This document shows, one piece after another, positions 15,343 through 57,529 of a stretch of DNA of 64,000 nt (positions within the stretch are counted from its first letter, which is position 1; each line of letters starts with the position of its first letter). Source of the stretch: Lentzea sp. NEAU-D7 (GTDB lineage: Bacteria; Actinomycetota; Actinomycetes; Mycobacteriales; Pseudonocardiaceae); assembly GCF_026242055.1 (NCBI RefSeq), contig NZ_JAPJDL010000001.1, positions 248,001 to 312,000 of the forward strand, written 5' to 3'. Under the pieces are notes generated by a model. That model had not been told where the DNA came from, did not search any database, and saw only the letters and a program-made list of their open reading frames with translations. The translations under genes were made by a program, and so were the position numbers.

Positions 15343-15369
15343 GTAACCACAACGCCCCCACTTGAACAC
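15343..15369 (-). promoter_or_regulatory. SigB/SigF-like leaderless promoter candidate (decarboxylase)
   Basis: Reading the minus strand: GTGT (15369-15366), 17 bases, GGTTAC (15348-15343), 9 bases, then ATG 15333. This is the weakest member of the promoter family described in the findings, with a longer spacer and one mismatch to GGGTAC. Confidence 0.35.
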
Positions 15370-15390
15370 CTTCGGCGCCGTGATCGAGGC

Positions 15391-15415
15391 GATTGGGCGA
15401 ACGACCGCCGGGTAC
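15391..15415 (+). promoter_or_regulatory. SigB-like leaderless promoter (DUF5709 gene)
   Basis: GATT (15391-15394), 15 bases, GGGTAC (15410-15415), 9 bases, ATG 15425. It exactly fits the published Streptomyces SigB consensus GNNT-N14-16-GGGTAY. No Shine-Dalgarno sequence lies between it and the start, so a leaderless mRNA is likely. Confidence 0.6.
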
Positions 15416-15424
15416 ACGACGGTC

Positions 15425-15817
15425 ATGGCTACGCATGACATGGATCCGGCCGAAGACCAGGCGTCGTACGCGCCGCCGCACGACACGGGATCGCCCGACT
15501 CCGTCGAGACCGATCCAGCGGCGCTCAACAGCGCGGAGGACCTCGACGAGGACCGGCTCCGGCTCGACCCGCTCGAAGCGGGCATGGACCCGCCGGAGCG
15601 GTGGAGCGGCGTGGACAAGTACGGCATGACGCCGTACGAGGAGGCCCATCCCCGTCCGCTGGAGGACCGGCTCGCCGAGGAGCAGCCCGACGTGCCGGTG
15701 GCCGAGGCACCGCTCGACGAGGAGGTGCGGGCGGAAGCCGCCGGACGCGGACAGCTCGCGGACGAACCCGGCGGCTCGGTGGCCGGTGCGGCACGCACGC
15801 CGGAAGACCCGATCTGA
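15425..15817 (+). CDS. DUF5709 protein
   Basis: 130 residues, very acidic, from ATG 15425. The conserved core is DPLEAGMDPPERWSGVDKYGMTPYEE, followed by DRLAEEQPDVP, the hallmark of the actinobacterial DUF5709 family. It has no transmembrane or catalytic motifs and is probably largely disordered; the function of the family is unknown. A SigB-like promoter sits immediately upstream, suggesting stress induction. It is divergent from the decarboxylase gene and convergent with the DivIVA-like gene across a strong bidirectional hairpin. Confidence 0.8.
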   Translation: MATHDMDPAEDQASYAPPHDTGSPDSVETDPAALNSAEDLDEDRLRLDPLEAGMDPPERWSGVDKYGMTPYEEAHPRPLEDRLAEEQPDVPVAEAPLDEEVRAEAAGRGQLADEPGGSVAGAARTPEDPI

Positions 15818-15827
15818 CCTGACGAGC

Positions 15828-15873
15828 GGGCGAGCACGGCGGCAGTCCCCAGTGGACGGAGCCGTGCTCGCCC
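15828..15873. terminator. Bidirectional hairpin terminator
   Basis: A perfect 13-bp inverted repeat, GGGCGAGCACGGC (15828-15840) and GCCGTGCTCGCCC (15861-15873), with a 20-base loop. It lies between the convergent DUF5709 and DivIVA-like genes and can serve both. Confidence 0.75.
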
Positions 15874-15895
15874 CGAACGACCTGTGCGCAGCTGT

Positions 15896-16702
15896 TCAGC
15901 GGCGAACGGGTTCGCGGATGTGCCGGTCCTGGCGGATGACCTGCACCGGCACCACGGGTCCCTCCTCCGGCGCCTCCTCCGGCAGAGGGCACAGCAGCAG
16001 CTCGGCGTCGGCCAGGAGTGCCTGCGCCGCGCGGAGTTCTCCGGCGATGCGGTCGCGCTGCCCGCGCAGCGCGTCGATCCGCGCCTGCTCACGCTGCTGC
16101 CGCTCTGCCAATACGCGCATCGCCTCCGCCCGCCGCAACGCCATGGCCTGTTCGAAGTCCGCCTCGACCTGCTGACGCAGCCGCGCGGCCTGCTCGTCGA
16201 GCTCGCGCCGCCGGCGTTCGGCCTGCCGGGTCGTCGCTTCGACCTGCCGGTGCGCACGGTCCATGAGGTCGCGGTGCTCGGTCTCCATCTCCGCGCGGCG
16301 CCGGTCGAGGTCGGCCACCAGCTGTCCGGCCCGCTGCCGCAGCCTGTCGGCGGCCCGCTCGGCGTTCGCCCAGTGCTGCTCAGCGGCGGCGCGGGCGCGC
16401 GTGGTGATCTCCTCCGCCTCGGCGTGGGCCAGCTCGACCATGCGGCGCAGGCGTTCGGTGAGCGCGCCGGGGTCGACCGGGGTGCGGCAGATCCGGTCGA
16501 CGCGGGCGCGCAGCTCCGCGTTGTGCGTGCGAGCTTCTTCCAGCTGCCGGGCGAGGGACTCCGCGTGGGCGAGGGCGGCGTCGCGATCGGCGGCGAGCAG
16601 CCTCAGCTCCTCCTCGGTTCCCCGCACGTAGTCCTGGACCTGGTCGCGGTCGTAGCCGCGCCGCCGCAGGTCGAAATCGGTGCGCAGCGGCAACAACTCC
16701 AC
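15896..16702 (-). CDS. DivIVA-like coiled-coil protein
   Basis: 268 residues. GTG 16702 is preferred over GTG 16747 because a strong GGAGGGAGAA lies 5-6 bases upstream and the longer start would fall inside the Hsp20 terminator hairpin. The N-terminus (LRTDFDLRRRGYDRDQVQDYV) is a DivIVA/Wag31 membrane-binding motif. About 200 residues of Arg/Glu/Ala-rich coiled coil follow, then a Pro-rich tail. Wag31-type proteins organise polar growth; this shorter paralogue resembles accessory polarisome or coiled-coil scaffolds. It lies downstream of hsp20. The exact role is inference. Confidence 0.75.
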   Translation of the reverse strand: MELLPLRTDFDLRRRGYDRDQVQDYVRGTEEELRLLAADRDAALAHAESLARQLEEARTHNAELRARVDRICRTPVDPGALTERLRRMVELAHAEAEEITTRARAAAEQHWANAERAADRLRQRAGQLVADLDRRRAEMETEHRDLMDRAHRQVEATTRQAERRRRELDEQAARLRQQVEADFEQAMALRRAEAMRVLAERQQREQARIDALRGQRDRIAGELRAAQALLADAELLLCPLPEEAPEEGPVVPVQVIRQDRHIREPVRR

Positions 16703-16735
16703 TCTTGTTCTCCCTCCGGTCACCGGTGCGGCGAC

Positions 16736-16769
16736 GCCACCGGTCACGGCCCTGCCCGCGACCGGTGGC
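16736..16769 (-). terminator. Hairpin after hsp20
   Basis: GCCACCGGTC (16736-16745) and GACCGGTGGC (16760-16769) form a perfect 10-bp stem with a 14-base loop, 9 bases beyond the hsp20 stop codon. Its position argues against a DivIVA-like start at 16747. Confidence 0.65.
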
Positions 16770-16777
16770 GCCCGGTG

Positions 16778-17233
16778 TCACTTGCCTTTGACGGCGATGC
16801 GGCGCGGCTTGGCCGCCTCGGTCTTGGGAACGCGGACCGTGAGCACGCCGTCGGCCAGATCGGCCTCGATGCTGTCGGCGTCGACGTCGCGCGGCAGCGT
16901 GATCCCGTACGAGAACCGCCCGACGCGGCGGGTGCGGTGCCGGAACAGGCCCTGCCGTTCCTTCTCCCTCACCTCACCGCCGATGGACAGCTCGGTGCCG
17001 GCGAGGTCGACGACGACGTCGTCGCGCCGGACGCCGGGCAGCTCGACCTCGACCAGGTAGGCCTCGGCCGACTCGGTCACGTCGGCCGGCGGCGCCCAGG
17101 CCCGCACGGTGTCACCGACGGAACCCGCGACCGACTCCAGCACACTGCCCAGCCGGGCGTGCAGGTCCTCGAACTCGCGGAACGGATCCCACCGGCCGAG
17201 TGGGCCGGACGATCGCACAGCAGGCAACGCCAT
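16778..17233 (-). CDS. Hsp20/alpha-crystallin small heat-shock protein
   Basis: 151 residues from ATG 17233 with AGGAGGTG 6 bases upstream, an unusually strong ribosome site. The N-terminal arm has DPFREFEDLHARLG; the alpha-crystallin domain (about 48-140) contains VEVELPGVRRDDVVVDL and the GRFSYGITLPRDVDAD and VLTVRVPK segments, followed by a short basic tail. It is an ATP-independent holdase for unfolding proteins. I see no clear HAIR (HspR) site upstream. Confidence 0.92.
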   Translation of the reverse strand: MALPAVRSSGPLGRWDPFREFEDLHARLGSVLESVAGSVGDTVRAWAPPADVTESAEAYLVEVELPGVRRDDVVVDLAGTELSIGGEVREKERQGLFRHRTRRVGRFSYGITLPRDVDADSIEADLADGVLTVRVPKTEAAKPRRIAVKGK

Positions 17234-17456
17234 GGCTTCACACCTCCTATGAGAGCCGGACGATTTTCCGTTCTCCTAGACGAACTCGCGCACGCCGTTG
17301 TTCCCGGAGCCGAGCCACTCGGACTCGGTCGTCCGGGTGATCCGTGCCACGGACCGGCCGTGGCTGACCTTGCTGGTGGCCCACTGCTCCCCCGCCTCGC
17401 TGACCGCGAGTGGGTTCGGCCGCGCGGCCCGGACGCCGTCTCGCGCCGGAACGTGG

Positions 17457-18926
17457 TCACAGCGCCAGTTCGTCGCTCTTCGTCCAGCGTGCGAGCAGGA
17501 TGGAGGCGTCGTCCCGCAAGGCTTCGTTCTGGTGCGCCAGCACGGCTTTGATCAGCCGCCGGGCGGTCTCCGGTGGCGGGTGCTGCGCCGCGGCCTCCCG
17601 TTCGAGGAAGTCCGTCAGCCGGCTCTCGCCGAAGAGCTCGCCGGCGTCGTCGCGTGCCTCGGTGATGCCGTCGGTGTGCAGGACCAGCCAGTCGCCGGGC
17701 TGCAGCGTCTCCTCGGCGATGGTGAGCTCACCGGTTCCCCGGCCGAAGGGCGGCCGCCGCCCGCCGCCGAGACGTTTGACGACCCTGCCGGACCGCAGCA
17801 GCAGCGGTGGCGGGTGACCGGCGTTGAGGTAGCGCAGCCGCCCGCTGCCGAGGTCGAGCTCGGCCAGGACACCGGTGGCGAACGCGCCGTCGGGGAACTG
17901 GCCGCTGATCGTCTCGTCGATGGCGCGGGCCTGTTCGAACAGGCCGTGGCCCACGCGGCGGTTGCTCCGGCAAGCGGCCAGGGCCGCCGCGGCCACGAAG
18001 CCGCTGCGCAGGGTGTGCCCGACGGCGTCGAAGATGGCCAGTGAGGCCGACTCCGGCGACAACGTGTAGTCGAAGGCGTCGCCGCCGACCTCGTAGCAGG
18101 GCTCCAGCATGCCGGCGAGGGCGAAACCCTCGGTGGCCGCGGTGAGCGGGGGCAGCAGCTGCCAGATCAGGTCGGCCGCCGGGGTCCTCTGCCGCTGGAG
18201 GCGGATCGCGTCCAGGCCGTCGCCGTAGCCGGTGCTGACGGTGACCAGGTGGCCGATGAGCGCCGACAGCCAGCGGCACCACATGCGCAGCTCCGGGTCG
18301 TGCGGACCCACTCCTCCCGGCGGGGTCACCGCCAGGACGCCGAGGCGTTCCACGCCGTCCAGCAGCGGCACCCACAGCTGGTGCTGCCCGCCGGAGTCGC
18401 TGGTGAGCGTCTGCACCGTGCGGAACGCCCGCCCGGCCAGGCTCGTGTCCACGCCCAGGGGCGCGCGACGGGGGTCTTCCGGGTCGTGCAGCGGGTGCAA
18501 GGTCTGCTGGTCGTAGTCGACGAGGTAGATCGCGATCCGCAGCCCCAGCGCCCTGCCCGCGCGTGCCGCGGCCGCGGGGAGGCGCTCCGGTGGCGCCTTG
18601 TGCATGCCGTCGAGCAAGCCGACCAGGCCCGCCAGCGGACCGGTCCGCGGACCGCTGCCCCGTGCGGGGAAGGTGTAGGGCACCCGCTGCGGCCAGGTCA
18701 GTTCGTCGAGGCGCTCGTTGATCGCGTGCGCCAACATGTCGCGTTGCAACGCGGGCAACGGCATCAGGCCGTGCAGGTACGCCTCGACCTCCATGAGACC
18801 TGCCGCTCCGCCGAGAGCGAAGTACCGCGTCCACAACTGCTCGGGTGTCAGGCCCGACCTGCTGAAGGCGAGCGCCAGAGCGCGGCGCTGCTCGTCCTGC
18901 TGTGAGGCCTGCCGGTCGGAGGACAT
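17457..18926 (-). CDS. GAF-like/SpoIIE PP2C phosphatase (RsbU-type)
   Basis: 489 residues from ATG 18926. An N-terminal helical region precedes a GAF-like sensor (about 110-235). A SpoIIE/PP2C domain follows (about 255-485), with metal-binding motifs in YEVGGDAFDY, IFDAVGHTLRSG, LNAGHPPPLLL, LHTDGITEARD and LRDDASILLARW. It would dephosphorylate an anti-sigma-factor antagonist, releasing a stress sigma factor. It is a clear paralogue of the phosphatase at 40822-42036. It lies 5 bases downstream of a GAF-ANTAR gene, so the two probably form one operon. Confidence 0.88.
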   Translation of the reverse strand: MSSDRQASQQDEQRRALALAFSRSGLTPEQLWTRYFALGGAAGLMEVEAYLHGLMPLPALQRDMLAHAINERLDELTWPQRVPYTFPARGSGPRTGPLAGLVGLLDGMHKAPPERLPAAAARAGRALGLRIAIYLVDYDQQTLHPLHDPEDPRRAPLGVDTSLAGRAFRTVQTLTSDSGGQHQLWVPLLDGVERLGVLAVTPPGGVGPHDPELRMWCRWLSALIGHLVTVSTGYGDGLDAIRLQRQRTPAADLIWQLLPPLTAATEGFALAGMLEPCYEVGGDAFDYTLSPESASLAIFDAVGHTLRSGFVAAAALAACRSNRRVGHGLFEQARAIDETISGQFPDGAFATGVLAELDLGSGRLRYLNAGHPPPLLLRSGRVVKRLGGGRRPPFGRGTGELTIAEETLQPGDWLVLHTDGITEARDDAGELFGESRLTDFLEREAAAQHPPPETARRLIKAVLAHQNEALRDDASILLARWTKSDELAL

Positions 18927-18931
18927 GGTGA

Positions 18932-19654
18932 TCAGCGGTCCCGCCGGGAGGTGGAGCGCACCAGGGTGCCGGCCAGGTCGCGGAGCTTCTTGTTCTCCTC
19001 GCGGGCGCTCTTCGCCAGCACGGCGAAAGCGGTTCCCTCGTCGACGTGCTCACGCGCCATGACGATCCCCTTGGCGATGCTGATCATGTCGCGGCCGCGC
19101 AGCGCGTCCGCGAGTGCCTCGCTGAGCTTCGTGGCGTTCTCGAACGTCCGCACGTTGGCCACCAGGATCGCCGACTGCGCCGCGAACATCGTGAGCAGGT
19201 ACTCGTGCCGTTCCCCGAACGTGCCGGGCTCGCGGCCGTAGACCTTGATCGCGCCCAGCACGTCGCCTCCCGCGACCAGCGGCGCGCTCAACGCCGACCG
19301 CATGACCGAGTCCCCGGCGGCCGCGGCCCAGCGCGGCCACCGGCCGTCCCCGGCGATGTCGTCGACCCGCACCACGTGGCGCTGTTCCCACGCCGTCAGG
19401 CACGGCCCCTCCCCCAGGTCGTACTGGAGCCCGTCGAGGTGTTCCACGACCGGGTCGGTCGCTGCCTCGGTCGTCCTGCGGCCGTGCTCGTCGAGCAGTG
19501 ACACGCCCGCGCCCGCCGTGCCGGGAAGCGCTTCCCCTGCCAGGGAGGTCACCAGCTGCAACGCCGTGCCGACCGTCTCCCGCGACAGCAGCAGCCCCGA
19601 CATCCGCGCGGTCACGGCCGCCAGTTCGTCGGCCAGCGGCAGGTCGTGGTTCAT
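18932..19654 (-). CDS. GAF-ANTAR regulator
   Basis: 240 residues from ATG 19654 (a GTG at 19663 is possible but lacks ribosome-site spacing). The GAF domain (about 20-165) includes YDLGEGPCLTAWEQ and VRVDDIAGDGRWPRWA. The C-terminal ANTAR three-helix domain begins near ALADALRGRDMISIAKGIVM, with Ala/Gly-rich helix contacts and a basic end. ANTAR domains bind paired hexaloop RNA hairpins and prevent transcription termination. It is upstream of the SpoIIE phosphatase in the same operon. The signal sensed is unknown. Confidence 0.88.
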   Translation of the reverse strand: MNHDLPLADELAAVTARMSGLLLSRETVGTALQLVTSLAGEALPGTAGAGVSLLDEHGRRTTEAATDPVVEHLDGLQYDLGEGPCLTAWEQRHVVRVDDIAGDGRWPRWAAAAGDSVMRSALSAPLVAGGDVLGAIKVYGREPGTFGERHEYLLTMFAAQSAILVANVRTFENATKLSEALADALRGRDMISIAKGIVMAREHVDEGTAFAVLAKSAREENKKLRDLAGTLVRSTSRRDR

Positions 19655-19862: not shown

Positions 19863-19899
19863 AGACCACCTCCCGCCGGACCACGCGAGTCGGTCGCCG

Positions 19900-19925
19900 G
19901 GATGGGTGGTTCCCGGCGGGGGTAT
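19900..19925 (+). promoter_or_regulatory. SigB-like leaderless promoter (DUF2231 gene)
   Basis: GGAT (19900-19903), 16 bases, GGGTAT (19920-19925), 8 bases, ATG 19934. It matches GNNT-N14-16-GGGTAY, and no Shine-Dalgarno intervenes. Confidence 0.5.
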
Positions 19926-19933
19926 CCGCAGCC

Positions 19934-21442: not shown

Positions 21443-21459
21443 CGCCCGGCGGCCCAGAG

Positions 21460-27657: not shown

Positions 27658-28245
27658 GTGCCGACTGGCGTTGCGCTGCGCGACCCGCGCCGGCAGCTGT
27701 TCGACGCCGCCGGCCGCGTCCTGCTCCGGGACGGTGCCAGCGAGCTGACCAGCCGGGCCGTCACCACCGAGGCGGGCGTGGCCAAGGGCGTCCTGCACCG
27801 GTACTTCGCCGACTTCGACGCCTTCCTCACCGAGCTGGTGCTGGATCGCATCGCGCAGATCGAGGCACAGGCCGCCGCACTTCGGGACGTGGCGGGCACC
27901 GGCACCGTCGCCGGCAACCTGACCAGCGCTCTCACGACCGGCTTCGACCCGGTCATGGTGGCGGTCGTGGTGCTCGTCATCGCACGGGACGAACTGCGCT
28001 CACGGCTGCGTGCGGCAGGCACAGCCAGGCTTCCGGTCGTCGGTGAGTTCACGGCCGCGGTCGCCGAGTACCTGACGGCCGAGCGCGACCTCGGCCGGCT
28101 CGCGGCCGACGCCGACATCAGCACGCTCGCTCCCACGGTGATCGGCGCCGCACACCTGCAGTTCACCGAGCACGGGGACGACCCGGCGAAAGCCGAGGCC
28201 GTGCGGAAGGTCGTGACCGCGGTCCTGGCCGGCGCCGTGCGCTGA
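27658..28245 (+). CDS. TetR-family regulator
   Basis: 195 residues; GTG 27658 (GAGGAGG 4 bases upstream) is preferred over GTG 27655. The N-terminal HTH (about 8-55) is canonical: RRQLFDAAGRVLLRDGASELTSRAVTTEAGVAKGVLHRYFADF. The C-terminal ligand domain is variable. It is divergent from a methyltransferase with overlapping operators between, so it is expected to control itself and that gene. Inducer unknown. Confidence 0.88.
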   Translation: MPTGVALRDPRRQLFDAAGRVLLRDGASELTSRAVTTEAGVAKGVLHRYFADFDAFLTELVLDRIAQIEAQAAALRDVAGTGTVAGNLTSALTTGFDPVMVAVVVLVIARDELRSRLRAAGTARLPVVGEFTAAVAEYLTAERDLGRLAADADISTLAPTVIGAAHLQFTEHGDDPAKAEAVRKVVTAVLAGAVR

Positions 28246-28269
28246 GTGGACCGGCGGGTGATCGGGTAC
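28244..28269 (+). promoter_or_regulatory. SigB-like leaderless promoter (DinB gene)
   Basis: GAGT (28244-28247), 16 bases, GGGTAC (28264-28269), 8 bases, ATG 28278. It starts 2 bases before the end of the TetR gene. It matches GNNT-N14-16-GGGTAY. Confidence 0.5.
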
Positions 28270-28277
28270 ACGGGATC

Positions 28278-38107: not shown

Positions 38108-40825
38108 ATGAGCACCGCCCGACACGAGATCGACTCCGACAGGCTGCGCGGGCTCGTGCACAACCTCGGCGTCGTGTTCTGGGCCGCCGACGCCCGGACC
38201 CGCGAGCTGACCTTCGTGTCGGGCCACGTCGAACAGCTGCTCGGCCATCCCGTCCAGCGGTGGCTGGAGGAACCCGGGTTCTGGGACTCGGTCGTGCACC
38301 CCGACGACCGCGACAGGTCCCACCGGGACCGCTGGCAGCGGGCAGGTGACCAGGACGACTACGACCTGAGCTACCGAGCCGTCACCGCGAGCGGTGAAGT
38401 CGTGTGGCTGTACGAGAAGGTCCACGTGGAGCGGGACGAGGCGGGCGCGCCGCGGGCGCTGCAGGGCGTGCTCGTCGACGTCACCGGCCAGCGCGTCGCC
38501 GCCGAGAGGGAACGGTTCCTCGCGGTGCTCGACCGCGAGTCGCAGAAGCTCGACGACGCCGACGACCTCATGGCGCTGGCGACCCGGATGCTCGGTGAGC
38601 ACCTCGCCGTCGACCGGTGCGCGTACGCGCGGACGGAGGAGGACGAGAACCACTTCGTCATGAGCGGCGACTACGCCACCGGGCTGCCGCCGTTGCCGGG
38701 CCGGTTCGCCATGCGCGAGTTCGGTGCGGGGGCGCTGCGCGCGATGCGGGCGGGAGAACCGTGGGTGGTCGCGGACAGCGGCAACGATCCGCGGCTCGAC
38801 GAGGACGACCTGGCCGCCTACGCGGTCACGGGCATCCGCGCGGTGATCTGCCTGCCCCTGCTGCGCGCCGGCCGGTTCGTCGCGGCCATGGCCGTGCACC
38901 AGGCGCACCCGCGGCAGTGGACCCAGGACGAGATCGACCTCGTGTCCGTCGTGGTCAACCGCTGCTGGGAGTCGCTGCAGCGCGCGCACTCCGACCGCGC
39001 CCTGCGCGACAACGAGCAGCGCCTCCGCCTGCTGATCGACCGGGCCGTCGACTGCATCTGGGTCCTCGACGGCGAACGGCGGTTCGTCGAGATCAACCCG
39101 GCCGCCTGCAGACTGCTGGGCTACCGGCGCGAGGACCTGGTCGGCCGCCCCGCCGAGGAGCTGTTCGTGCTCGACGGCGACGACCGGGACCCGCCGCACG
39201 ACCAGGAGCAGACCGGGGTCTGGAACCTGCGCTGCGCCGACGGGTCGATCGTCGCGCTGGAGCTCAGCGTCCAGGTCACGCCGAGCGGGCTGCAGGCCAT
39301 CGGGCGCGACGTGACCGAACGGCAGCGCACCGAGGCCGAGCGCGAACTGCTGCTGCAGCGCGAGCACGAGATCGCCACCACGTTGCAGCGCAGCCTGCTG
39401 CCCCGCGAGCTGCCGGTGCTGGAGCGGCTCGCCACCTCCGCCCGCTACCTGCCCGCGTCGAGTCACGCGCAGGTCGGCGGCGACTGGTACGAGGTGCTCC
39501 CGATCAGCGGCACCGTGGCCGGGATGTCGGTCGGCGACGTCGTCGGCTCCGGCCCGACGGCCGCGGCCGTGATGGGGCAGCTCCGCAGCGCCCTGGCCGG
39601 GTTCCTGGTCGACGGGCACTCCCCCGCCGCGGCGCTGGAACGGCTCGACGCCTTCGCCGCCAGGGTGAACGGCGCCACCGGCAGCAGCTGCGCGTGCATC
39701 ACCTTCGACTGGGCCACCGGAAGGCTGTGCTGGGCCAGCGCGGGTCACCCGCCGCCGCTGGTGGCCGACGAGCGGGGAGCCCGGTTGCTCACGAGCAGCA
39801 CCGGCGCGGTGCTGGGCACCGCGGGCCGAGCGCGGTACGAGGAGCACAGCACGGAGCTCGCGCCCGGCGCGACGATCGTGCTCTACACCGACGGCCTGGT
39901 CGAACGCAGAGGCGTCGTCGTCGACGAGGGCCTCGACCAGCTGCTGGCCGTCGTGGCGCGGGCGCACCACCAGGCGCCCCCCGAACTGACCGGCACGATC
40001 GTCGACGCGCTGCTCGCCGACGGCCACAGCGACGACGTCGCGCTCGTCGTCGCCCGCCACCTGCCCGCGCCACTGCGCGTGACGTCCCCCGCCGAGGCGC
40101 GCCGGCTGTCGGAGCTGCGAGGTGCCGTGTCCGAGTGGGCGGCCGCCGCGGGGCTGTCCGACGACCTCGCCTACGACCTCGTGCTGGCCTACGGGGAGGC
40201 CGCCGCGAACGTCGTGGACCACGCCTATCCCGGCGCCACGGGCACGTTCGACACCGAGCTCTCGCAGACCGATGGCGCCGTGCGCGTCACCGTCCGGGAT
40301 CACGGCAGGTGGCGCCCGGAGCCCGAGGATCCCGGCCACCGCGGCCGCGGGCTGCAGATGATCCGCGCCATGGCCGACGACGTCGAGCTCGAAGCGAACG
40401 GCGCGGGCACGACGGTCACCTTCCAGTTCTCCACCGCACCCGCCGACGTACCACCGGCACCGGCGCCGGCGCTCGCCACGCCGTCCGACGTGGTCGGGCT
40501 CGCCGTGGAGGAGGCTTCCGGCGGCACCCAGGTGCTCCGCCTCACCGGAGACCTCGACACGCACACCTCCGGCGGCTTCCGCGCACCGCTGATGGCCCAC
40601 ATCGGCGCCCGGCCCGACAGCCCGGTCGACATCGACCTCACCCGCCTGGGTTACCTGAGCAGCTGCGGCGTCACGGTGCTCCTGGAGGCCGCGGACGCCG
40701 CGCGGCGAGCCGGGCGGACGATCAGCGTGACCTGCCTGCGCGGCAGTGCTCCCGACCGCATCCTCACGTTGTCGGGTCTGCGCGACGTCCTCGCCGTGAG
40801 CAGCCGGTCCGAGGAGTTCACGTGA
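38108..40825 (+). CDS. PAS-GAF-PAS-SpoIIE-HATPase-STAS multidomain regulator
   Basis: 905 residues from ATG 38108. Domain order: PAS (about 12-125), GAF (about 140-295), PAS (about 300-410), SpoIIE PP2C phosphatase (about 430-645; QVGGDWYEVL, GDVVGSGPTAAAVMG, ASAGHPPPL, LYTDGLVERR, HSDDVALVV), RsbW-type kinase (about 660-785; YGEAAANVVDHAYPG, VTVRDHGRW, RGRGLQMIRAMAD) and STAS (about 805-900; LGYLSSCGVTVLLEA). The chain carries a phosphatase, an anti-sigma-like kinase and an anti-sigma-antagonist domain, so it may be a self-contained partner-switching switch. It overlaps the next phosphatase gene (GTGA). Confidence 0.88.
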   Translation: MSTARHEIDSDRLRGLVHNLGVVFWAADARTRELTFVSGHVEQLLGHPVQRWLEEPGFWDSVVHPDDRDRSHRDRWQRAGDQDDYDLSYRAVTASGEVVWLYEKVHVERDEAGAPRALQGVLVDVTGQRVAAERERFLAVLDRESQKLDDADDLMALATRMLGEHLAVDRCAYARTEEDENHFVMSGDYATGLPPLPGRFAMREFGAGALRAMRAGEPWVVADSGNDPRLDEDDLAAYAVTGIRAVICLPLLRAGRFVAAMAVHQAHPRQWTQDEIDLVSVVVNRCWESLQRAHSDRALRDNEQRLRLLIDRAVDCIWVLDGERRFVEINPAACRLLGYRREDLVGRPAEELFVLDGDDRDPPHDQEQTGVWNLRCADGSIVALELSVQVTPSGLQAIGRDVTERQRTEAERELLLQREHEIATTLQRSLLPRELPVLERLATSARYLPASSHAQVGGDWYEVLPISGTVAGMSVGDVVGSGPTAAAVMGQLRSALAGFLVDGHSPAAALERLDAFAARVNGATGSSCACITFDWATGRLCWASAGHPPPLVADERGARLLTSSTGAVLGTAGRARYEEHSTELAPGATIVLYTDGLVERRGVVVDEGLDQLLAVVARAHHQAPPELTGTIVDALLADGHSDDVALVVARHLPAPLRVTSPAEARRLSELRGAVSEWAAAAGLSDDLAYDLVLAYGEAAANVVDHAYPGATGTFDTELSQTDGAVRVTVRDHGRWRPEPEDPGHRGRGLQMIRAMADDVELEANGAGTTVTFQFSTAPADVPPAPAPALATPSDVVGLAVEEASGGTQVLRLTGDLDTHTSGGFRAPLMAHIGARPDSPVDIDLTRLGYLSSCGVTVLLEAADAARRAGRTISVTCLRGSAPDRILTLSGLRDVLAVSSRSEEFT

Positions 40826-42893: not shown

Positions 42894-42929
42894 CGATCCT
42901 CCTCCAGAGCGCGTGCCAACACCACGGAG

Positions 42930-42954
42930 GTACCCCGGACCGCCCGGGGCATTC
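42930..42954 (-). promoter_or_regulatory. SigB-like promoter of the SDR gene
   Basis: Minus strand: GAAT (42954-42951), 15 bases, GGGTAC (42935-42930), then a 36-base gap to GTG 42893 that includes a ribosome site. This is a leadered member of the GNNT-N15-GGGTAC series. Confidence 0.5.
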
Positions 42955-43014: not shown

Positions 43015-44208
43015 TCAGCGCACCATGGCCAGCGAAGGCCGGGCGACGCGCAGGTACAGGTGTTCGGTCCTCCGCGCGACCTCGTCCCAGGTGTAGCAGG
43101 CGGAGACCCGGTCCGCGCCGGCGGTGCCGTAGACGCTGCGCCGGGAGCGGTCCGCGAGCAACACCCGCAGCTCCTTCGCGAGCCGCTTCGGGTTCCGCGG
43201 TGGCACCAGCTTTCCGGTGACGCCGTCGACCACGGTGTCGAGGAGCCCGCCGACCGCGGAAGCGATCACCGGCAGGCCGCACGCCATCGCCTCCAGCGGC
43301 ACGATGCCGAACGGTTCGTACCACGGCACGCAGGCGACGACTTCCGCCGAGCGCAGGAAGTCCGGCATGTCCTTGCGGGCCACCTGCCCTGCCAGCCGCA
43401 CTCGGTCGCACACACCGAGCGCCTCCGCGTGCGCGAGCAGCCGCTGCGCCTCGCGGTCCGACTTCAGCTTGCTCACGGGTGGTCCGCCCGCGATCACCAG
43501 TTCGGCCTCCGGCACCATCTTCAGCGCGGTGATCAGGTCCTCGAACCCCTTGCGCGGCACCAGCCTGCCGACCGACACGATCCGGCGGGGGTGGGGCGAG
43601 GCCGGGGCGGGGTGGAACAGCTCGGGGTCGACGCCGCAGGGCACGACGGCGGTGCGCGTGCGCACGATCCCCATCCTCACCAGCTCGTTCACCTCGTCCT
43701 CGCAGGTCGCGGCGATCAGGGCGGCCTTCTTGCCGATGATCCGCTCGATCGCGATCCGCTGGGCGGGGCTGGTGTCCGCCTCGCGCTGGTGGCGGCGCTT
43801 CACGGTGCCGAGCGCGTGGAAGGTCTGCACCACCGGCACTGCGAGGTCGCGCGTCGCCATGATCGCGGCGAATCCGGACATCCAGAAGTGCGCGTGCACG
43901 ACGTCGGGTGGCGCGGCACGCCAGTCCTCGGCCAGGAAGCGGGCGAACTCCCCCATGAAAGGCAGGAGCTCGTCCTTGGGCACGTGTTCCGCGGGTCCGG
44001 CGGGGACGTGCACCACCTCGTAACCGGCGTCCGTGCGCACCCGCTCCGGGATCTCGCCGTCGTCCCGCCGCGTGTAGACCACGACTTCGTGTCCCCGCGC
44101 GACCAATGCCTCCGACAGCGCGGCCACGTGCACGTTCTGCCCACCGGCGTCGACCTCGCCCAGCACCGCCAGCGGGCTGGCGTGCTCGGACACCATCGCG
44201 ATCCTCAT
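43015..44208 (-). CDS. GT4 glycosyltransferase (MshA-like subgroup)
   Basis: 397 residues from ATG 44208 (GGAGGTGACGGC upstream), overlapping a 33-codon frame by ATGA. GT-B fold: EVDAGGQNVHVAALSEALVA near the N-terminus is characteristic of GT4 enzymes using UDP- or ADP-sugars, and the donor domain has RIVSVGRLVPRKGFEDLI and the Glu-rich YEPFGIVPLEAMACGLPV motif (E-x7-E). It lies beside the UDP-glucose dehydrogenase/UDP-xylose synthase operon, so UDP-GlcA or UDP-Xyl is a plausible donor, by inference only. Confidence 0.88.
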   Translation of the reverse strand: MRIAMVSEHASPLAVLGEVDAGGQNVHVAALSEALVARGHEVVVYTRRDDGEIPERVRTDAGYEVVHVPAGPAEHVPKDELLPFMGEFARFLAEDWRAAPPDVVHAHFWMSGFAAIMATRDLAVPVVQTFHALGTVKRRHQREADTSPAQRIAIERIIGKKAALIAATCEDEVNELVRMGIVRTRTAVVPCGVDPELFHPAPASPHPRRIVSVGRLVPRKGFEDLITALKMVPEAELVIAGGPPVSKLKSDREAQRLLAHAEALGVCDRVRLAGQVARKDMPDFLRSAEVVACVPWYEPFGIVPLEAMACGLPVIASAVGGLLDTVVDGVTGKLVPPRNPKRLAKELRVLLADRSRRSVYGTAGADRVSACYTWDEVARRTEHLYLRVARPSLAMVR

Positions 44209-44306
44209 GCCGTCACCTCCATTGCACAGCCGATCCCCGCCCGCGACTTCGGCGTCCACATCGCGTCGTCACGATCGGAGGGCCCCGCGGCGGAAGTCCG
44301 GTCCAC
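44205..44306 (-). CDS. 33-codon leader-like ORF coupled to the GT4 gene
   Basis: GTG 44306 opens a 33-codon frame (MDRTSAAGPSDRDD at the N-terminus, ending GCAMEVTA) whose TGA overlaps the glycosyltransferase ATG as ATGA. A GGATAA hexamer ends exactly 9 bases before the GTG, as for gmhB. The first bases (promoter through CTCTGTGGACCGGAC) resemble the promoter and start of gmhB (56955), so this may be a duplicated gmhB 5' end that now drives the glycosyltransferase. Expression is unproven. Confidence 0.4.
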   Translation of the reverse strand: MDRTSAAGPSDRDDAMWTPKSRAGIGCAMEVTA

Positions 44307-44315
44307 AGAGGAGAT

Positions 44316-44340
44316 TTATCCCCGGAAAACGCTTCGAAAC
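44316..44340 (-). promoter_or_regulatory. SigB/SigF-like leaderless promoter before the 33-codon ORF and GT4
   Basis: Minus strand: GTTT (44340-44337), 15 bases, GGATAA (44321-44316), then ATCTCCTCT (9 bases) and GTG 44306. The same spacer length and the identical 9-base stretch occur at gmhB (56965-56989). Confidence 0.5.
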
Positions 44341-48114: not shown

Positions 48115-49019
48115 CACGTCTCCCTCGCCATGAGTCGAAGTCCTCGTTCCAGCGGGATCTCCGGCTCCCAGCCGAGCAGCTCCCGCGCTCTGGTGATGTC
48201 CGGCCTGCGTCGCCGGGGGTCGTCGGTCATCGCGCCGACGTGCACGATCTCGGAGTCGCTGCCGGTCACCTCGATGACCTGCTTGGCGACCTCCATCACC
48301 GTGACCTCCTCGGGGTTGCCGAGGTTGACCGGCCCGGCTTCACCGCTGTCCGCCATGGCCAGCACGCCGCGCACGAGATCGTCCACGTAGCAGAGCGACC
48401 GCGTCTGCGTGCCGTCACCGTGCACGGTCAACGGCTCGTTCTTGCGGGCCTGCGCGAAGAACGTCGGCAACATGCGACCGTCGCTCGACCTCATCCGGGG
48501 CCCGTAGGTGTTGAAGATCCTGACCACGCCGACGTCGACGCCGTGCTCCCGCCGGTAGGCGAACGCGAGCGCCTCGCCGAACCGCTTCGCCTCGTCGTAC
48601 ACGCTGCGCGGCCCGATCGGGTTGACGTTGCCCCAGTAGGTCTCCCGCTGCGGGTGTTCCAGCGGGTCGCCGTACACCTCGCTGGTGGAGGCGACGACCA
48701 CGCGCGCGCCGAGCCGTCTGGCCTCCTCCAGGACGCGATGGGTGCCGAACCCGCCCGTCTCGAGCGTGCCGACCGGTGACGCCAGGTAGGCAGCGGGCGA
48801 CGCGGGGCACGCGAAGTGCAGCACCAGCTCGCTGGGCGGCATCCGGAACGGTTCGCGCACGTCGACGTGCAGGAGGTCGACACCAGGCGGCACGTTCGCG
48901 GGCTCCCCCGTGCTGAAGTCGTCCACACAGGTCACCCGCATGCCGCGCGCCACAAGGGCGTCGCACATGTGCGAGCCGAGAAAGCCCGCACCTCCGGTCA
49001 CCACAGCACGCTCTGCCAT
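48114..49019 (-). CDS. UDP-glucuronate decarboxylase (UDP-xylose synthase)-like
   Basis: 301 residues from ATG 49019. Extended SDR: VVTGGAGFLGSHMCDAL, active-site Ser/Glu in STSEVYGDP, YDEAKRFGEALAF catalytic Tyr/Lys, RIFNTYGPRM and RSLCYVDDLVRG. The STSEVYGDP, YDEAKR and NTYGPRM set is characteristic of UXS. It would convert UDP-glucuronate from the operon's dehydrogenase to UDP-xylose. There is no ribosome site; a GGGTAG hexamer ends 9 bases before ATG. It is the first gene of the UXS/carbamoyltransferase/GT2/UGD operon. Confidence 0.85.
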   Translation of the reverse strand: MAERAVVTGGAGFLGSHMCDALVARGMRVTCVDDFSTGEPANVPPGVDLLHVDVREPFRMPPSELVLHFACPASPAAYLASPVGTLETGGFGTHRVLEEARRLGARVVVASTSEVYGDPLEHPQRETYWGNVNPIGPRSVYDEAKRFGEALAFAYRREHGVDVGVVRIFNTYGPRMRSSDGRMLPTFFAQARKNEPLTVHGDGTQTRSLCYVDDLVRGVLAMADSGEAGPVNLGNPEEVTVMEVAKQVIEVTGSDSEIVHVGAMTDDPRRRRPDITRARELLGWEPEIPLERGLRLMARET

Positions 49020-49028
49020 GGGATTGAG

Positions 49029-49053
49029 CTACCCGGCGAAACGCCTCCTACAC
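49029..49053 (-). promoter_or_regulatory. SigB/SigF-like leaderless promoter of the UXS operon
   Basis: Minus strand: GTGT (49053-49050), 15 bases, GGGTAG (49034-49029), 9 bases (CTCAATCCC), ATG 49019. No Shine-Dalgarno is present, consistent with a leaderless mRNA. Confidence 0.5.
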
Positions 49054-53969: not shown

Positions 53970-54541
53970 GAGACCCTCCGCAGGGTCGCGGGGAGCGCGG
54001 CCTCGAACGCCTCGCACAGGGCGTGGACCGCGACGAGCTGCGCCTCCTGCACGTTGCACGGGTCGCCGGGCAGGTCCAGCACGTCGTCCGCCAGGTCGGC
54101 CAGCGGGTTCGGTGCCGGGCCGGTGAACGCCCAGACCTGGGCCCCGACCTTCCTGGCCGTGCGGGCGGCCTCCAGCAGGTTCTCGCTGCGGCCACTGGTG
54201 GACAGCAGCACGACGATGTCCCGCGGCCGCGCGTGTGCCGCGATCTGCCGGGCGAAGACCTGGTCGTAGCCGTAGTCGTTGGCGATCGCGGTGACGCTCG
54301 ACGTCTCGGCGCACAGCGCCAGCGCCGAGAACGGCGCGCGGTCGTGCCGGTAGCGGCCCACCAGCTCGGCTGTGAGGTGCTGAGCCTCGGCGGCGGATCC
54401 GCCGTTGCCCGCGGCGAGCAGCCTGCCGCCCTCGGTCAGCCTGCGGGCGAGCGTGCTGCCCCAGCGGGTGAGCCGCGGCGCCTGCGCCCGCAGGGCGGTC
54501 AGCGTGCCGGCCAGTCCGTTCAGGTGCTCCTCCACGCTCAT
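53966..54541 (-). CDS. gmhA: Sedoheptulose-7-phosphate isomerase (GmhA-like SIS protein)
   Basis: 191 residues from ATG 54541, overlapping the hldE-like gene by ATGA. A single SIS domain: LLAAGNGGSAAEAQHLTAELVGRY is the GmhA signature, with SSVTAIANDYGYDQVFARQI and LLSTSGRSENLLEAARTARKVG phosphosugar loops, and QEAQLVAVHALCEAFE carrying the conserved Glu/His. It converts sedoheptulose 7-phosphate to D-glycero-D-manno-heptose 7-phosphate. The GT4 gene upstream is separated only by a 17-codon coupled frame. Confidence 0.88.
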   Translation of the reverse strand: MSVEEHLNGLAGTLTALRAQAPRLTRWGSTLARRLTEGGRLLAAGNGGSAAEAQHLTAELVGRYRHDRAPFSALALCAETSSVTAIANDYGYDQVFARQIAAHARPRDIVVLLSTSGRSENLLEAARTARKVGAQVWAFTGPAPNPLADLADDVLDLPGDPCNVQEAQLVAVHALCEAFEAALPATLRRVS

Positions 54542-54591
54542 CGCGCCACCGCCAGCGGGCTGGCGGGCACGGAGATCGTCACGTCACTCAT
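54538..54591 (-). CDS. 17-codon ORF coupled on both sides between GT4 and gmhA
   Basis: ATG 54591 overlaps the GT4 stop as ATGA, and its own TGA overlaps the gmhA ATG as ATGA, so a 17-residue peptide (MSDVTISVPASPLAVAR) exactly fills the gap. Such perfect coupling suggests it is translated, as a micro-protein or a translation relay. It could also be coincidental filler left by loss of a larger gene. Confidence 0.4.
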   Translation of the reverse strand: MSDVTISVPASPLAVAR

Positions 54592-55448
54592 CCGGCCACC
54601 TCCTTCACCACGTCGTCCCAGCTGCGCAGGAACGCATCGAGTCCGTACCGGGCCAACGCGAACTCGCGCGCCCTCTTGCCCTTCTCGTGCGCGAGCGCGG
54701 GATCCGCGATCAGTTCCCGCGTCGCGCGCACCAGGTCCTCCACGTCCGTCGAGACCGTTCCGGCCTCCTCGGGCACCGCGCGCACAGCCTCGGTGCACGC
54801 GAGCGCCACGACCGGCATGCCGATGTGCATCGCCTCGATGAGCGACAGCCCCAGCGAGGTCCAGCGCATCGGATGGACGTAGACGCGCCGGCGAGCCATT
54901 TCCCGGTGCAGCGAGCCGAGGTCGTGATCGCCCAGGCCACCGATCGGCTCGGTGTTCATCCCGAACACGTCGATCGGCTCGAACCGCGGCAGCAGGTCGG
55001 TGCCGACGATCCGGCCGCGCCGGACCGGGTCGTTGACGACCGCGACCGCGCGGGCCAGCTCGCCGGTGTAGAGCGGGCCGGGGTCGGCCACGCCGTGCTC
55101 GACGACGACCGTCCGGGTGGACCCGCAGTCCCACATCAGGTCGTTGAAGTGCGTGACGTGCACCAGGAGCCCGTCCCAGTCCGCCATCGGATGCCTCTGC
55201 CCCGGCGCACTCGGTGTGTTGTGCTCCAGGTAGACCACCGGAACACCGCGCGGCACCAGGCCCAGCTGCTCCGGCTGCTGCACCACCGCGAGATCGGCGT
55301 CCACTTCGGACAGAGAGACCTCGGTCGCGCGCCAGGGACGTCCGGCGAGCCCGATCCCGTCAGGAGGGCCGACGACCAGGTAGTCGTGGTCGCCCCGGAC
55401 GAAGGAGTTCGTCCAGGACCCGTGCACGTGCCAGAGCAGGATTCTCAT
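54588..55448 (-). CDS. GT4-like glycosyltransferase
   Basis: 286 residues from ATG 55448. It starts MRILLWHVHGSWTNSFVRGDHDYLVV and carries LVPRGVPVVYLEHNTPSAPGQRHP, then the donor-domain pieces FGMNTEPIGGLGD, RRVYVHPMRWTSLGLSLIEAMHIGMPVVA and TEAVRAVPEEAGTVS. It is shorter than a usual GT4 (about 380) but has a complete donor motif. It is coupled to the GT9 gene (GTGA-type overlap region) and to the 17-codon frame before gmhA. It probably transfers a sugar onto the heptosylated acceptor. Confidence 0.82.
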   Translation of the reverse strand: MRILLWHVHGSWTNSFVRGDHDYLVVGPPDGIGLAGRPWRATEVSLSEVDADLAVVQQPEQLGLVPRGVPVVYLEHNTPSAPGQRHPMADWDGLLVHVTHFNDLMWDCGSTRTVVVEHGVADPGPLYTGELARAVAVVNDPVRRGRIVGTDLLPRFEPIDVFGMNTEPIGGLGDHDLGSLHREMARRRVYVHPMRWTSLGLSLIEAMHIGMPVVALACTEAVRAVPEEAGTVSTDVEDLVRATRELIADPALAHEKGKRAREFALARYGLDAFLRSWDDVVKEVAG

Positions 55449-56443
55449 CGGGTCACCTCCGCGACGGCCGCGACGACCTCGGCGGGTTCCACGAGGTCCA
55501 GGCACGGGTGGCCGGGTATCGGACATTCACGGGCACGGCTGTTCCGGCACCGCGCGTGCTGGTCGCCGAGCAGGACATGTCGTCCGTGCGGTGCCCATCG
55601 GACGGCGGGCACGACCGGAGCGAACAACGACACGACCGGTGTGCCGACCGCGACCGCGAGGTGAGCGGGGCCGGTGTTGCCGACGACGACAGCCTCGGCA
55701 CCGGCCAGCACGCCGCTCAGCTCGCGGAAGGTGGTGCGCCCGCCCAGATCGGTCCCGCACGCGCCGGCGACGTGTGCGGTCAGGCCGGCTTCCGCCGGTC
55801 CGCCGGTCACGACCACGCGATGCCCTGCCGCGTTCAACGCGACCACGGCCTTCGCCCACCGGTCGGGCGACCAGGTGCGGGCGGGCGCCGTCGCACCGGG
55901 GTGCACCACCACGTACGGGTGGCTCAGTTCGGGATGATCCAGCTCGACCTGGGGCGGGTCGAGCACGGCGAGCCGGCCGTCGTCGCCCGGCGGCAGCTCG
56001 AACCCGGCCGCGCGCGCGACCTGCAACGCCCGTTCGGCCTCGGGCACGTCCGGGTCGCCGGTCAGCCGCACGTCCAGCAGCGAGCCGGGGTAGTCGGTCG
56101 AGCGCGCCACGATCCTCGGCACCCCGGCGAGCCGCAGCAGCAGGGCCAGCGGCAACGGGCTCTGGTGGAACGACGTCAGCACCAGCGCCACGTCGGCGCG
56201 GATCCCGTGCACCAGCGCGACCACGGCCTCGATGTCGATCGGCCGGACCTCGGGCGCCGGGTTCACGATCCACGGGCACTCCCACTCGATGATCCGGTTC
56301 ACGCCGGGCAGCAGTTCGGCCGCCCTCACCCCGCCTGGTCCGCACAGCAGGACCACCTCGCCGGACGCGGCCGCCGCGCGGATCGCCGGACCCGCGAGCA
56401 GCACGTCGCCGTCACTGTCCAACCGCGCCACCAGCGTCCTCAC
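55445..56443 (-). CDS. GT9 heptosyltransferase-like glycosyltransferase
   Basis: 332 residues from GTG 56443 (GTGA overlap with gmhB). WaaF/WaaC-like fold: MRTLVARLDSDGDVLLAGPA, VVHPGATAPARTWSPDRWAKAV and the donor-binding GAEAVVVGNTGPAHLAVAVGTPVVSLFAP are characteristic of GT9, the ADP-heptose:LPS heptosyltransferase family. A Cys-rich end (CRNSRARECPIPGHPC) is unusual for the family. In this Gram-positive there is no LPS, so the acceptor is another glycan or secondary metabolite. The same operon makes the activated heptose. Confidence 0.85.
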   Translation of the reverse strand: MRTLVARLDSDGDVLLAGPAIRAAAASGEVVLLCGPGGVRAAELLPGVNRIIEWECPWIVNPAPEVRPIDIEAVVALVHGIRADVALVLTSFHQSPLPLALLLRLAGVPRIVARSTDYPGSLLDVRLTGDPDVPEAERALQVARAAGFELPPGDDGRLAVLDPPQVELDHPELSHPYVVVHPGATAPARTWSPDRWAKAVVALNAAGHRVVVTGGPAEAGLTAHVAGACGTDLGGRTTFRELSGVLAGAEAVVVGNTGPAHLAVAVGTPVVSLFAPVVPAVRWAPHGRHVLLGDQHARCRNSRARECPIPGHPCLDLVEPAEVVAAVAEVTR

Positions 56444-56955
56444 AGGATCATCCCCATCGCGGCACGCAGATCAGCGGCCGTGCGCGGCGCGCGTTGCACC
56501 TCTTCCGGCCGGGTCACGTCCGTGGGGACCAGGACGGACGCCGCGCCCGCGTTGCGCGCGGCCATCACGTCGGCTTCGATGTCCCCCACGACCACGGTGC
56601 GTCGTGGGCTCACCCCGAGCGCGTCACACGCCGCCAGCACCAGGCCGGGCGCGGGTTTGCGGCACGCACAGCCGTCATCCGGGTGGTGCGGGCAGATCTG
56701 CCACGTGCCGAACCGTCCGAGCAGTTCCTCGACGCGGGCGTTGACCGCCTGCACCTGGGCCTCGGTCAGCAACCCCCTGCCGATTCCGGACTGGTTGCTG
56801 ACCACTCCGGTGCGCAGTCCGCGTGCGCGCAGGTCCCTGATCGCTTCCTGAGCGCCGGGCATCAGCTCCACGCGAGCCGGGTCGCCGTTGTACGGCACAT
56901 CACGGACGAGCGTGCCGTCGCGGTCGAAGAGCACCGCCTCGATGGTCCGATCCAT
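56440..56955 (-). CDS. gmhB: D-glycero-beta-D-manno-heptose-1,7-bisphosphate 7-phosphatase
   Basis: 171 residues from ATG 56955. HAD fold with catalytic DRDGTLVRD, motif II SNQSGIGRG, a zinc-binding CPHHPDDGCACRKPAPG and GDIEADVMAARNAG. This zinc site and length define the GmhB/histidinol-phosphatase subfamily. It removes the 7-phosphate of the heptose bisphosphate. It is the first gene of the heptose operon. A GGCTAA hexamer ends 9 bases before ATG with no ribosome site, so the mRNA is probably leaderless. Confidence 0.88.
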   Translation of the reverse strand: MDRTIEAVLFDRDGTLVRDVPYNGDPARVELMPGAQEAIRDLRARGLRTGVVSNQSGIGRGLLTEAQVQAVNARVEELLGRFGTWQICPHHPDDGCACRKPAPGLVLAACDALGVSPRRTVVVGDIEADVMAARNAGAASVLVPTDVTRPEEVQRAPRTAADLRAAMGMIL

Positions 56956-56964
56956 AGAGGAGAT

Positions 56965-56989
56965 TTAGCCGAGAAAAACGGCTTGAAAC
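56965..56989 (-). promoter_or_regulatory. SigB/SigF-like leaderless promoter of the heptose operon
   Basis: Minus strand: GTTT (56989-56986), 15 bases, GGCTAA (56970-56965), ATCTCCTCT (9 bases), ATG 56955. The spacer, 9-base segment and first codons match the 44306 leader ORF region. Confidence 0.5.
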
Positions 56990-57076
56990 GCTACTCTGCG
57001 AAGCGATTCCCGCCGCCACGACCTGCAACGGGCTGTGACGTGCTCGAAACGGTCAGTGAGAAGTCGTCGCCGACGG

Positions 57077-57472
57077 TCACGAGCGGGCGGCGGCCGTCGC
57101 GCGGTCGTTCGCCCTGCCGATCGCCTCGACGAGCTCGTCCTTGGACATCCGCGAGCGGCCGTCGATCTTCAGGCGCTTCGCGATGTCGTACAGGTGTTCC
57201 TTGCTCGCGTTCGCGTCCACGCCACCGGCGGTCTCCCCCTGCACCGGCGTGCTCCTGGCCGCCTGGCGGTCGGAGGGTCCTTTCTCCTCCTTGGCCTCCC
57301 AGTGGTCGCCGACCTTCTCGAACGAGTGCTTCAGCGCGGAGAACGCCGTGCGGTGAGCACGTTCGCCCTCTCCGTAGGTCTCCACGGCCGAGTCGTGAGC
57401 CTTGATCCAGGTGCGCTGCGCCTTCTTCGACGACCGTGCCACCGTGCTGGGGAGTTCCTCTCGTCCGGGCAT
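57077..57472 (-). CDS. ChaB-like protein with C-terminal Rho-N-type domain
   Basis: 131 residues from ATG 57472, with GGAGGAAG upstream. N-terminal ChaB domain: PSTVARSSKKAQRTWIKAHD and GEGERAHRTAFSALKHSFEKVGDHW. Residues 95-128 (KEHLYDIAKRLKIDGRSRMS, KDELVEAIGRANDR) form a Rho-N/SAP-like helix-extended-helix nucleic-acid-binding motif. This fusion is common in actinomycetes and often stress-induced. Its minus-strand SigB-like promoter shares the palindrome GGGTACCC with the aldehyde dehydrogenase promoter. Confidence 0.8.
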   Translation of the reverse strand: MPGREELPSTVARSSKKAQRTWIKAHDSAVETYGEGERAHRTAFSALKHSFEKVGDHWEAKEEKGPSDRQAARSTPVQGETAGGVDANASKEHLYDIAKRLKIDGRSRMSKDELVEAIGRANDRATAAARS

Positions 57473-57483
57473 GCTTCCTCCAT

Positions 57484-57507
57484 GTTTCGACCGGGACGTC
57501 CGGGTAC
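57484..57507 (+). promoter_or_regulatory. SigB/SigF-like leaderless promoter (aldehyde dehydrogenase)
   Basis: GTTT (57484-57487), 14 bases, GGGTAC (57502-57507), 9 bases, ATG 57517. This is the best match in the window to both GTTT (SigF) and GNNT (SigB) consensus forms. The -10 is part of the palindrome GGGTACCC shared with the opposite-strand promoter. Confidence 0.6.
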
Positions 57508-57529
57508 CCGAATCGCATGACCGCCACCC
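57504..57529 (-). promoter_or_regulatory. SigB-like promoter of the ChaB-like gene
   Basis: Minus strand: GGGT (57529-57526), 16 bases, GGGTAC (57509-57504), then 31 bases with a ribosome site to ATG 57472. The hexamer overlaps the plus-strand -10 in GGGTACCC (57502-57509), so only one polymerase can occupy the site at a time. Confidence 0.5.

Follow-up and report, generated by a model that had tools for sequence, protein, structure and literature searches.

Leaderless geometry of putative SigB/SigF-family promoters at stress and glycan genes of Lentzea and its relatives

Ten promoter-like sites and their geometry

The 64-kb stretch of the Lentzea sp. NEAU-D7 genome analysed here (the window) contains ten candidate sites that resemble general-stress promoters of the SigB/SigF family, in which a GNNT or GTTT -35 element is followed after 14-17 nt by a GGGNAN -10 hexamer. 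An initial annotation had proposed these ten on the basis of a GNNT-like -35 element and a GGGTAY-like hexamer, and every one was found where it had been placed. The sites precede genes for a 130-aa open reading frame (ORF), an Orn/Lys/Arg decarboxylase, a DUF2231 membrane protein, a DinB-fold mycothiol transferase, an SDR, a 33-codon ORF ahead of GT4, an NAD-dependent sugar epimerase, the heptose gene gmhB, and the divergent pair ChaB and aldehyde dehydrogenase (ALDH). The 130-aa ORF, previously labelled DUF5709, matched no Pfam family at E<=10 and could not be named through NCBIfam either, and the epimerase, previously labelled UXS, reached no NCBIfam cut-off.

The distance d between the end of the hexamer and the start codon (ATG or GTG) is 8 nt at DUF2231 and DinB and 9 nt at six further sites, and none of the eight Shine-Dalgarno (SD)-like words looked for in -20..-1 before the start codon was found at any of these eight short-range sites. 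The geometry described by the initial annotation, a hexamer exactly 8 or 9 nt before the start without an SD, was therefore borne out on recheck of the sequence, as was its count of four perfect GGGTAC or GGGTAT hexamers among the eight. The other four read GGGTAG (epimerase), GGCTAA (gmhB), GGATAA (pre-GT4) and GGTTAC (decarboxylase), and since the third base is not G in the last three, these fit GGGNAN more loosely. At the SDR and ChaB sites SD words are present, and the hexamer lies 36 and 31 nt from the start codon, respectively. The short-range sites thus combine the lack of an SD with a -10 box at a distance that would place the transcription start site (TSS) on the start codon, as in leaderless genes.

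Scoring used a matrix built from 24 published Streptomyces coelicolor SigB-type promoters (Table 2 of PMC8346170), which is independent of the window and so avoids training on it. All eight short-range sites score 9.0-15.2 bits at their respective distances, in agreement with the SigB/SigF consensus, and the two leadered sites score lower (SDR 6.7, ChaB 8.1). A score of 9 is attained by about 0.04% of sampled genome positions, and 75 positions on both strands of the window score at least 9; because such scores alone are not rare, the signal is carried by the distance to the start.

This positional signal extends well beyond the window. The 9.3-Mb genome contains GNNT-N14-17-GGGTAY-N8-10-ATG 43 times versus 13 in the reversed control, where pattern counts treat alternative -35 choices at one site as separate matches. 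About 0.3 sites are expected per 64 kb versus 4 in the window (Poisson probability, by hand, about 3e-4, uncorrected for the choice of window); the initial annotation had estimated fewer than one perfect site by chance. Distance tests covered the window and 60 stretches of the genome, together 1.264 Mb with 1203 called genes, and gene starts were taken from a codon-usage caller made for the analysis and not from a standard annotation. For GNNT-N14-17-GGGTAY at d=0-40, 12 of 36 site-start pairs fall at d=8-10, nine of them outside the window; this count leaves out the start at 15425, which lies outside the range of that scan (to +60), and the matrix scan used a wider range. A second, broad hump at d=31-39 (15 of 36 pairs) fits leadered genes. 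The initial annotation had proposed a matrix scan for enrichment near starts, and the published matrix yields a distribution that is not flat and peaks at exactly d=9, with 14 sites there at threshold 10 and a d=8-10 total of 23 (five from the window) versus 9.8 on average for sets of three other distances.

Across 120 Pseudonocardiaceae genomes, GNNT-N14-17-GGGTAY precedes ATG 3022 times at N8-10 versus 1683 times at N12-14, with 1023 and 1015 in the respective reversed controls. Taken genome by genome, N8-10 is higher than N12-14 in 109, lower in 10 and equal in one, and 117 genomes lie above their own reversed control with two below. The geometry of about 9 nt claimed at the outset is thus a positional peak both in this genome and across its family. 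A class-wide sample of 197 genomes was summed for seven families of 14-15 genomes each (103 of the 197), with the reversed pattern as sole control, and gave match-to-control ratios of 3.84 (f39), 2.64 (f8), 2.41 (f32), 2.29 (f30), 1.48 (f31), 1.19 (f38) and 1.12 (f29). The leaderless layout is widespread in the class and not universal, as the last three families show little excess.

Promoters of the epimerase and heptose genes

On the reverse strand, GTGT-N15-GGGTAG (49020..49053) ends 9 nt before the epimerase ATG at 49019. A match to this gene is present in 51 of the 120 family genomes, and 22 of the 30 loci listed, from 12 genera, carry the promoter against a shuffled expectation of 0.03. 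Its hexamers are all GGGTAR (16 GGGTAG, 6 GGGTAA), the spacer is 15 nt in 20 of the 22 and the distance is 8-10 nt; in the g3 genomes L255 and L257 a GGGTAY lies at a greater distance, and both were scored as misses. GGGTAR at all 22 matched epimerase promoters (L239-L266) compares with GGGTAC nearly throughout at RsbW, ALDH and the 130-aa ORF, and this last hexamer base may separate sigma paralogues.

The gmhB gene, first in the heptose operon, has GTTT-N15-GGCTAA (56956..56989, reverse strand) 9 nt before its ATG at 56955. The usual operon order in relatives is gmhB-GT9-GT-GT4-gmhA-hldE-SDR, and GTTT-N15 (N16 once)-GGNNAN occurs 9-10 nt before ATG or GTG of gmhB in 20 of 30 loci from 9 genera, with a shuffled expectation of 0.04. 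Across the locus counts of the whole analysis, one locus with a cut flank and a misplaced alignment (L138) was scored as a miss, and the start in L206 was fixed by string match. Together with the epimerase counts, this makes the initially suggested link to a glycan locus a conserved link to sugar and glycan genes.

The pre-GT4 and gmhB sites are not independent of each other. GTTT-N15-GGATAA (44307..44340, reverse strand), 9 nt before a GTG at 44306, has been copied from the gmhB promoter: the local alignment scores 98 versus 56 for the best of 200 shuffles, begins about 145 nt upstream, is gapped, and is tightest around the promoter and first codons. The 33-codon ORF behind it (44205..44306, reverse strand; VDRTSAAGPSDRDD...) matches the gmhB N-terminus (MDRTIEAVLFDRDG...) before diverging, and is a remnant of the gmhB 5' end whose stop overlaps the GT4 start (ATGA; GT4 ATG at 44208). 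GT4 is absent from the gmhB operon of this genome and is located at 43015-44208 behind the copied promoter, an arrangement that suggests duplication followed by deletion, with a leaderless start codon retained and coupled to GT4. We therefore rejected gmhB and pre-GT4 as two separate observations. A TAAATCTCCTCTRTG block was likewise rejected as a regulon of its own, because its only two exact copies in the genome lie within the window (two more places match at 2 mismatches).

Upstream of the heptose promoter, ten other genera share a GAGTAGTAG element 13 nt (12 nt in one genome) before GTTTAC. The pair GAGTAGTAG-N8-20-GTTTACY occurs once per genome in 21 of the 120 family genomes, with the reversed control occurring once in all 120, and all 21 loci are at the heptose locus, 17 by their adjoining genes and four (G061, G075, G094, G118) from their coordinates, which are no more than about 1.6 kb away from gmhB. 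L159 carries a variant of the module and is outside the 21 counted genomes. The module precedes GTb and not gmhB in g42 and one further genome, and hence marks the operon start and not one gene. A GTDB scan placed 9 of 80 loci listed in Pseudonocardiaceae, all nine beside heptose-operon genes; of the other 71 loci listed, four GC-rich ones match none of 19 query genes and 67 match none of gmhB, gmhA, hldE and GT9. Chance matches are expected in such a scan because only 15 fixed bases were sought over that collection. The exact pair is absent from Lentzea's own genus, where GAGTAGC stands directly before GTTTC instead, and a broad GAGTAGTAG-GTTTAC regulon was rejected since the module belongs to a single locus.

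These features bear on the most serious alternative, namely that the SigB-type assignment is wrong for the elements at the heptose operon and ahead of GT4, where the conserved block would be a transcription-factor operator accompanying a promoter of another class. The constant placement of GAGTAGTAG (13 nt before GTTTAC in 20 of the 21 genomes with the pair, 12 nt in one, always at the heptose operon) and the looseness of the GGNNAN hexamer would suit an operator, as would a perfect inverted repeat, GAGAAGTG-N7-CACTTCTC, that lies over the heptose promoter -35 region in L120 (reverse-complement positions 1457-1479) and ends 18 nt before the gmhB start. Partial forms of this repeat were seen by eye in some other genera, and the L120 repeat is a possible candidate operator. 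However, GTTT-N15-GGNNAN-N9/10-RTG matches the published SigB-family pattern, L136 has a canonical leaderless GGGTAC promoter at gmhB, and no TANNNT box occurs 4-10 nt before the start in any of the 20 gmhB matches, so that we regard an operator with another promoter class as unlikely. A bolder proposal, which we offer tentatively, retains the SigB-family core: the Pseudonocardiaceae heptose-glycan operon might be driven by a dedicated composite promoter in which an activator-like GAGTAGTAG, usually after YACG, stands a fixed 13 nt before GTTTAC-N15-GGNNAN and yields a leaderless mRNA, once per genome and before whichever gene leads the operon. An envelope glycan would then be controlled both by the stress sigma network and by a single regulator dedicated to it.

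The sigma operon, stress genes and alternative explanations

Two proteins of the genome score above the curated SigBFG cut-off. The stronger is encoded in an RsbW-like-SigF operon (contig C6) whose first codon is preceded by GTGT-N16-GGGTAC-N9-ATG, so that a cognate sigma and its anti-sigma are encoded behind the same promoter. The RsbW hexamer is present in 18 of 18 same-genus loci including its own (17 GGGTAC, 1 GGGTAG) and its distance to the start is 8-10 nt in 16 of them (exactly 9 nt in 13), one of the 16 starting with TTG; same-genus relatives are not independent of one another. Judged from the sequence, this pattern is the autoregulation expected of such sigma factors. Inspection by eye of 12 loci from the order's other families (35-55% identity) did not reveal the RsbW promoter; those alignments begin inside the protein, which makes the true upstream place uncertain. 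The second SigBFG factor (L036, G000:C6:179118) lies about 48 kb from the first and is followed by a 152-aa ORF resembling a membrane protein. Stress-signalling genes also occur in the window at 16778-18926 and 38108-40825 (Hsp20, a SpoIIE phosphatase and a PAS-GAF-SpoIIE-HATPase-STAS protein), and they are a possible partner-switching input for the sigma factors.

Several of the remaining sites are conserved in position. The 130-aa ORF has GATT-N15-GGGTAC (15391..15424, forward strand) 9 nt before its ATG at 15425, and GGGTAC lies 9 nt before ATG in 8 of 8 full-length same-genus loci, its own included, even where flanks differ. Among the 22 shorter homologues elsewhere in the genus (L173-L194), an in-frame ATG follows GGGTAN at 9-10 nt in 15, a count given without a shuffled control, and the promoter apparently accompanies the gene family as a whole. 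ALDH (57484..57516, forward strand; GTTT-N14-GGGTAC, 9 nt, ATG 57517) and ChaB (57473..57529, reverse strand; GGGT-N16-GGGTAC, 31-nt leader with SD, ATG 57472) are divergent, and a GGGTACCC palindrome at 57502-57509 supplies overlapping -10 hexamers for the putatively leaderless ALDH and the leadered ChaB. The palindrome is kept in four same-genus relatives and in L149 and not in L159, and among 20 loci the six others with the divergent pair all have the ALDH-side hexamer 9 nt before ATG (five GGGTAC, one GGGTAA). The other sites are those of the decarboxylase (15334..15369, reverse; GTGT-N17-GGTTAC, 9 nt, ATG 15333; matrix 11.8 at d=9), DUF2231 (19900..19933, forward; GGAT-N16-GGGTAT, 8 nt, ATG 19934), DinB (28244..28277, forward; GAGT-N16-GGGTAC, 8 nt, ATG 28278) and SDR (42894..42954, reverse; GAAT-N15-GGGTAC, 36 nt with SD, GTG 42893), the last being weak.

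Two further alternatives concern the whole set. Start codons here are predicted and further in-frame ATG or GTG codons may exist, and true starts downstream would give transcripts with short leaders; yet no SD is found near the short-range sites, the spacing of about 9 nt at RsbW is maintained though the start codon varies between ATG and GTG, and downstream starts would not produce a peak at 8-10 nt, making this explanation improbable. Pure chance, in which a GC content of 72% would make GGGTAY frequent and starts would have been selected to fit, is highly improbable and was rejected on the positional and reversed-pattern controls in genome, family and matrix scan: the distance distribution is not flat, the excess is family-wide and appears with an independent matrix, and site and distance are conserved in orthologues despite diverging flanks, although a reversed control at about one third of matches and the 75 window positions at score 9 mean that some single sites, such as DUF2231 and DinB, could be chance.

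Very probably, then, these sites are SigB/SigF-family general-stress promoters that yield leaderless mRNA, with two conserved subclasses at the glycan genes. A number of observations weigh against this reading. The epimerase pattern is missing from 8 of 30 loci, and the closest epimerase relative, L240, has AGGAGG instead; the gmhB pattern is missing from 10 of 30 (among them L136), and it was chosen after inspecting the sequences, for which the shuffles do not correct. The RsbW distance is 6 nt in L198, and L211 has no in-frame start at the aligned place. The decarboxylase and DUF2231 sites each recur in one of seven relative neighbourhoods, that of the closest relative L225, and the DinB site in none, with no DinB orthologue in those seven. 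Families f29, f38 and f31 exceed their control only slightly, and SigB-type sites also occur with leaders at d=31-39, so leaderlessness is not obligatory for them. The class assigned initially nonetheless gains support from the independent published matrix, the two SigBFG factors and the same promoter at the RsbW-SigF operon; its uniformity does not, as GGGTAY, GGGTAR and GTTT-N15-GGNNAN subclasses and two weaker leadered sites are present.

Mechanism, known systems and significance

The proposed mechanism would begin with RNA polymerase carrying a SigB/SigF-family sigma factor, which would recognise the GNNT or GTTT and GGNNAN elements (with GGGTAR as the subclass of the epimerase gene and GTTT-N15-GGNNAN as that of the heptose operon) and initiate about 8-10 nt after the hexamer. 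With 8-9 nt to the start codon, the mRNA 5' end would fall at, or within 1-2 nt of, that codon, and the transcript would be translated leaderless, without an SD; the 9-nt spacing would therefore represent a TSS that coincides with the start codon and is maintained by selection. Sigma dependence, the TSS and stress induction are what we infer from these sequence features. Among the S. coelicolor SigB-type promoters tabulated in PMC8346170 (Table 2, the last letter of each string taken as the TSS), 21 of 24 have the TSS 8-11 nt after the hexamer and the other three at 3, 6 and 7 nt, and a geometry of about 9 nt is expected for this reason. Leaderless transcripts are also frequent in mycobacteria, at 24% (PMC6448022) and 26% (PMC3898074) in the data reported there.

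The SigB-homologue promoters of S. coelicolor share the GNNT/GTTT element, a spacer given as 12-15 nt after a 6-nt -35, the GGGNAN hexamer and a TSS mostly 8-11 nt past it, whereas the regulon genes listed in that source differ from those of the window; the word "leaderless" does not occur in it (PMC8346170). Mycobacterial SigF promoters (GTTT-N15-17-GGGTA, as given in PMC4694148, PMC7390352 and PMC7693655) have the same consensus and spacer as the window sites. In the part of the M. smegmatis SigF table in PMC4694148 that covers 88 positions, 14 fall at 8-11 nt whereas 4-7 and 12-13 nt are empty, and the initial suggestion that the geometry lacks precedent is thus not supported; these positions refer to a 5-nt motif, equivalent to roughly 7-10 nt for the hexamer, and the listed genes need not all have a true SigF promoter. 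ChaB, arginine decarboxylase and GT2 appear in that table, no heptose gene was seen in the same part of it, and the article does not use the word "leaderless". According to the M. smegmatis data, a SigF-dependent promoter precedes chaB (listed at 63 nt) and the rsbW promoter is SigF-independent, whereas RsbW in the window genome itself has a putatively leaderless SigF-type promoter.

Actinobacterial leaderless genes described in Zheng 2011 (PMC3160421) and Cortes 2013 (PMC3898074) likewise lack an SD and have their -10 box some 10 nt upstream of the start codon. The prediction in Zheng 2011, as set out in the relevant passages, relies on TANNNT-like boxes, and GGGTAY-led genes therefore fall outside its signal; sigJ is listed there as one of the known leaderless genes in which no Pribnow box is apparent, and the source cited for it places sigJ under the stress sigma factor SigH. 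In Cortes 2013, where TSSs were mapped directly, 73% of the primary ones have TANNNT, and SigF goes unmentioned in the corresponding sections. A leaderless SigF/SigB (GGGTA) geometry is not stated in the pertinent portions of the open-access articles PMC6448022, PMC8820732 and PMC5741613, and nothing was found in the open-access literature, judged by titles, on a heptose or gmhB promoter in actinobacteria or on GAGTAGTAG with Streptomyces. As far as seen, the leaderless geometry is a previously unremarked property of a known promoter class.

A stress regulon that is read from GGGTAY boxes would escape leaderless-gene predictions keyed to TANNNT, and the geometry described here is a simple means to correct start codons and to list SigB/SigF regulons from Pseudonocardiaceae sequence. 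The single-copy GAGTAGTAG module offers in addition a starting point for identifying the regulator that controls an actinobacterial heptose glycan. Should leaderless translation apply to stress genes, to the sigma operon itself and to an operon for an envelope glycan, stress in these bacteria could be coupled to changed ribosome initiation.

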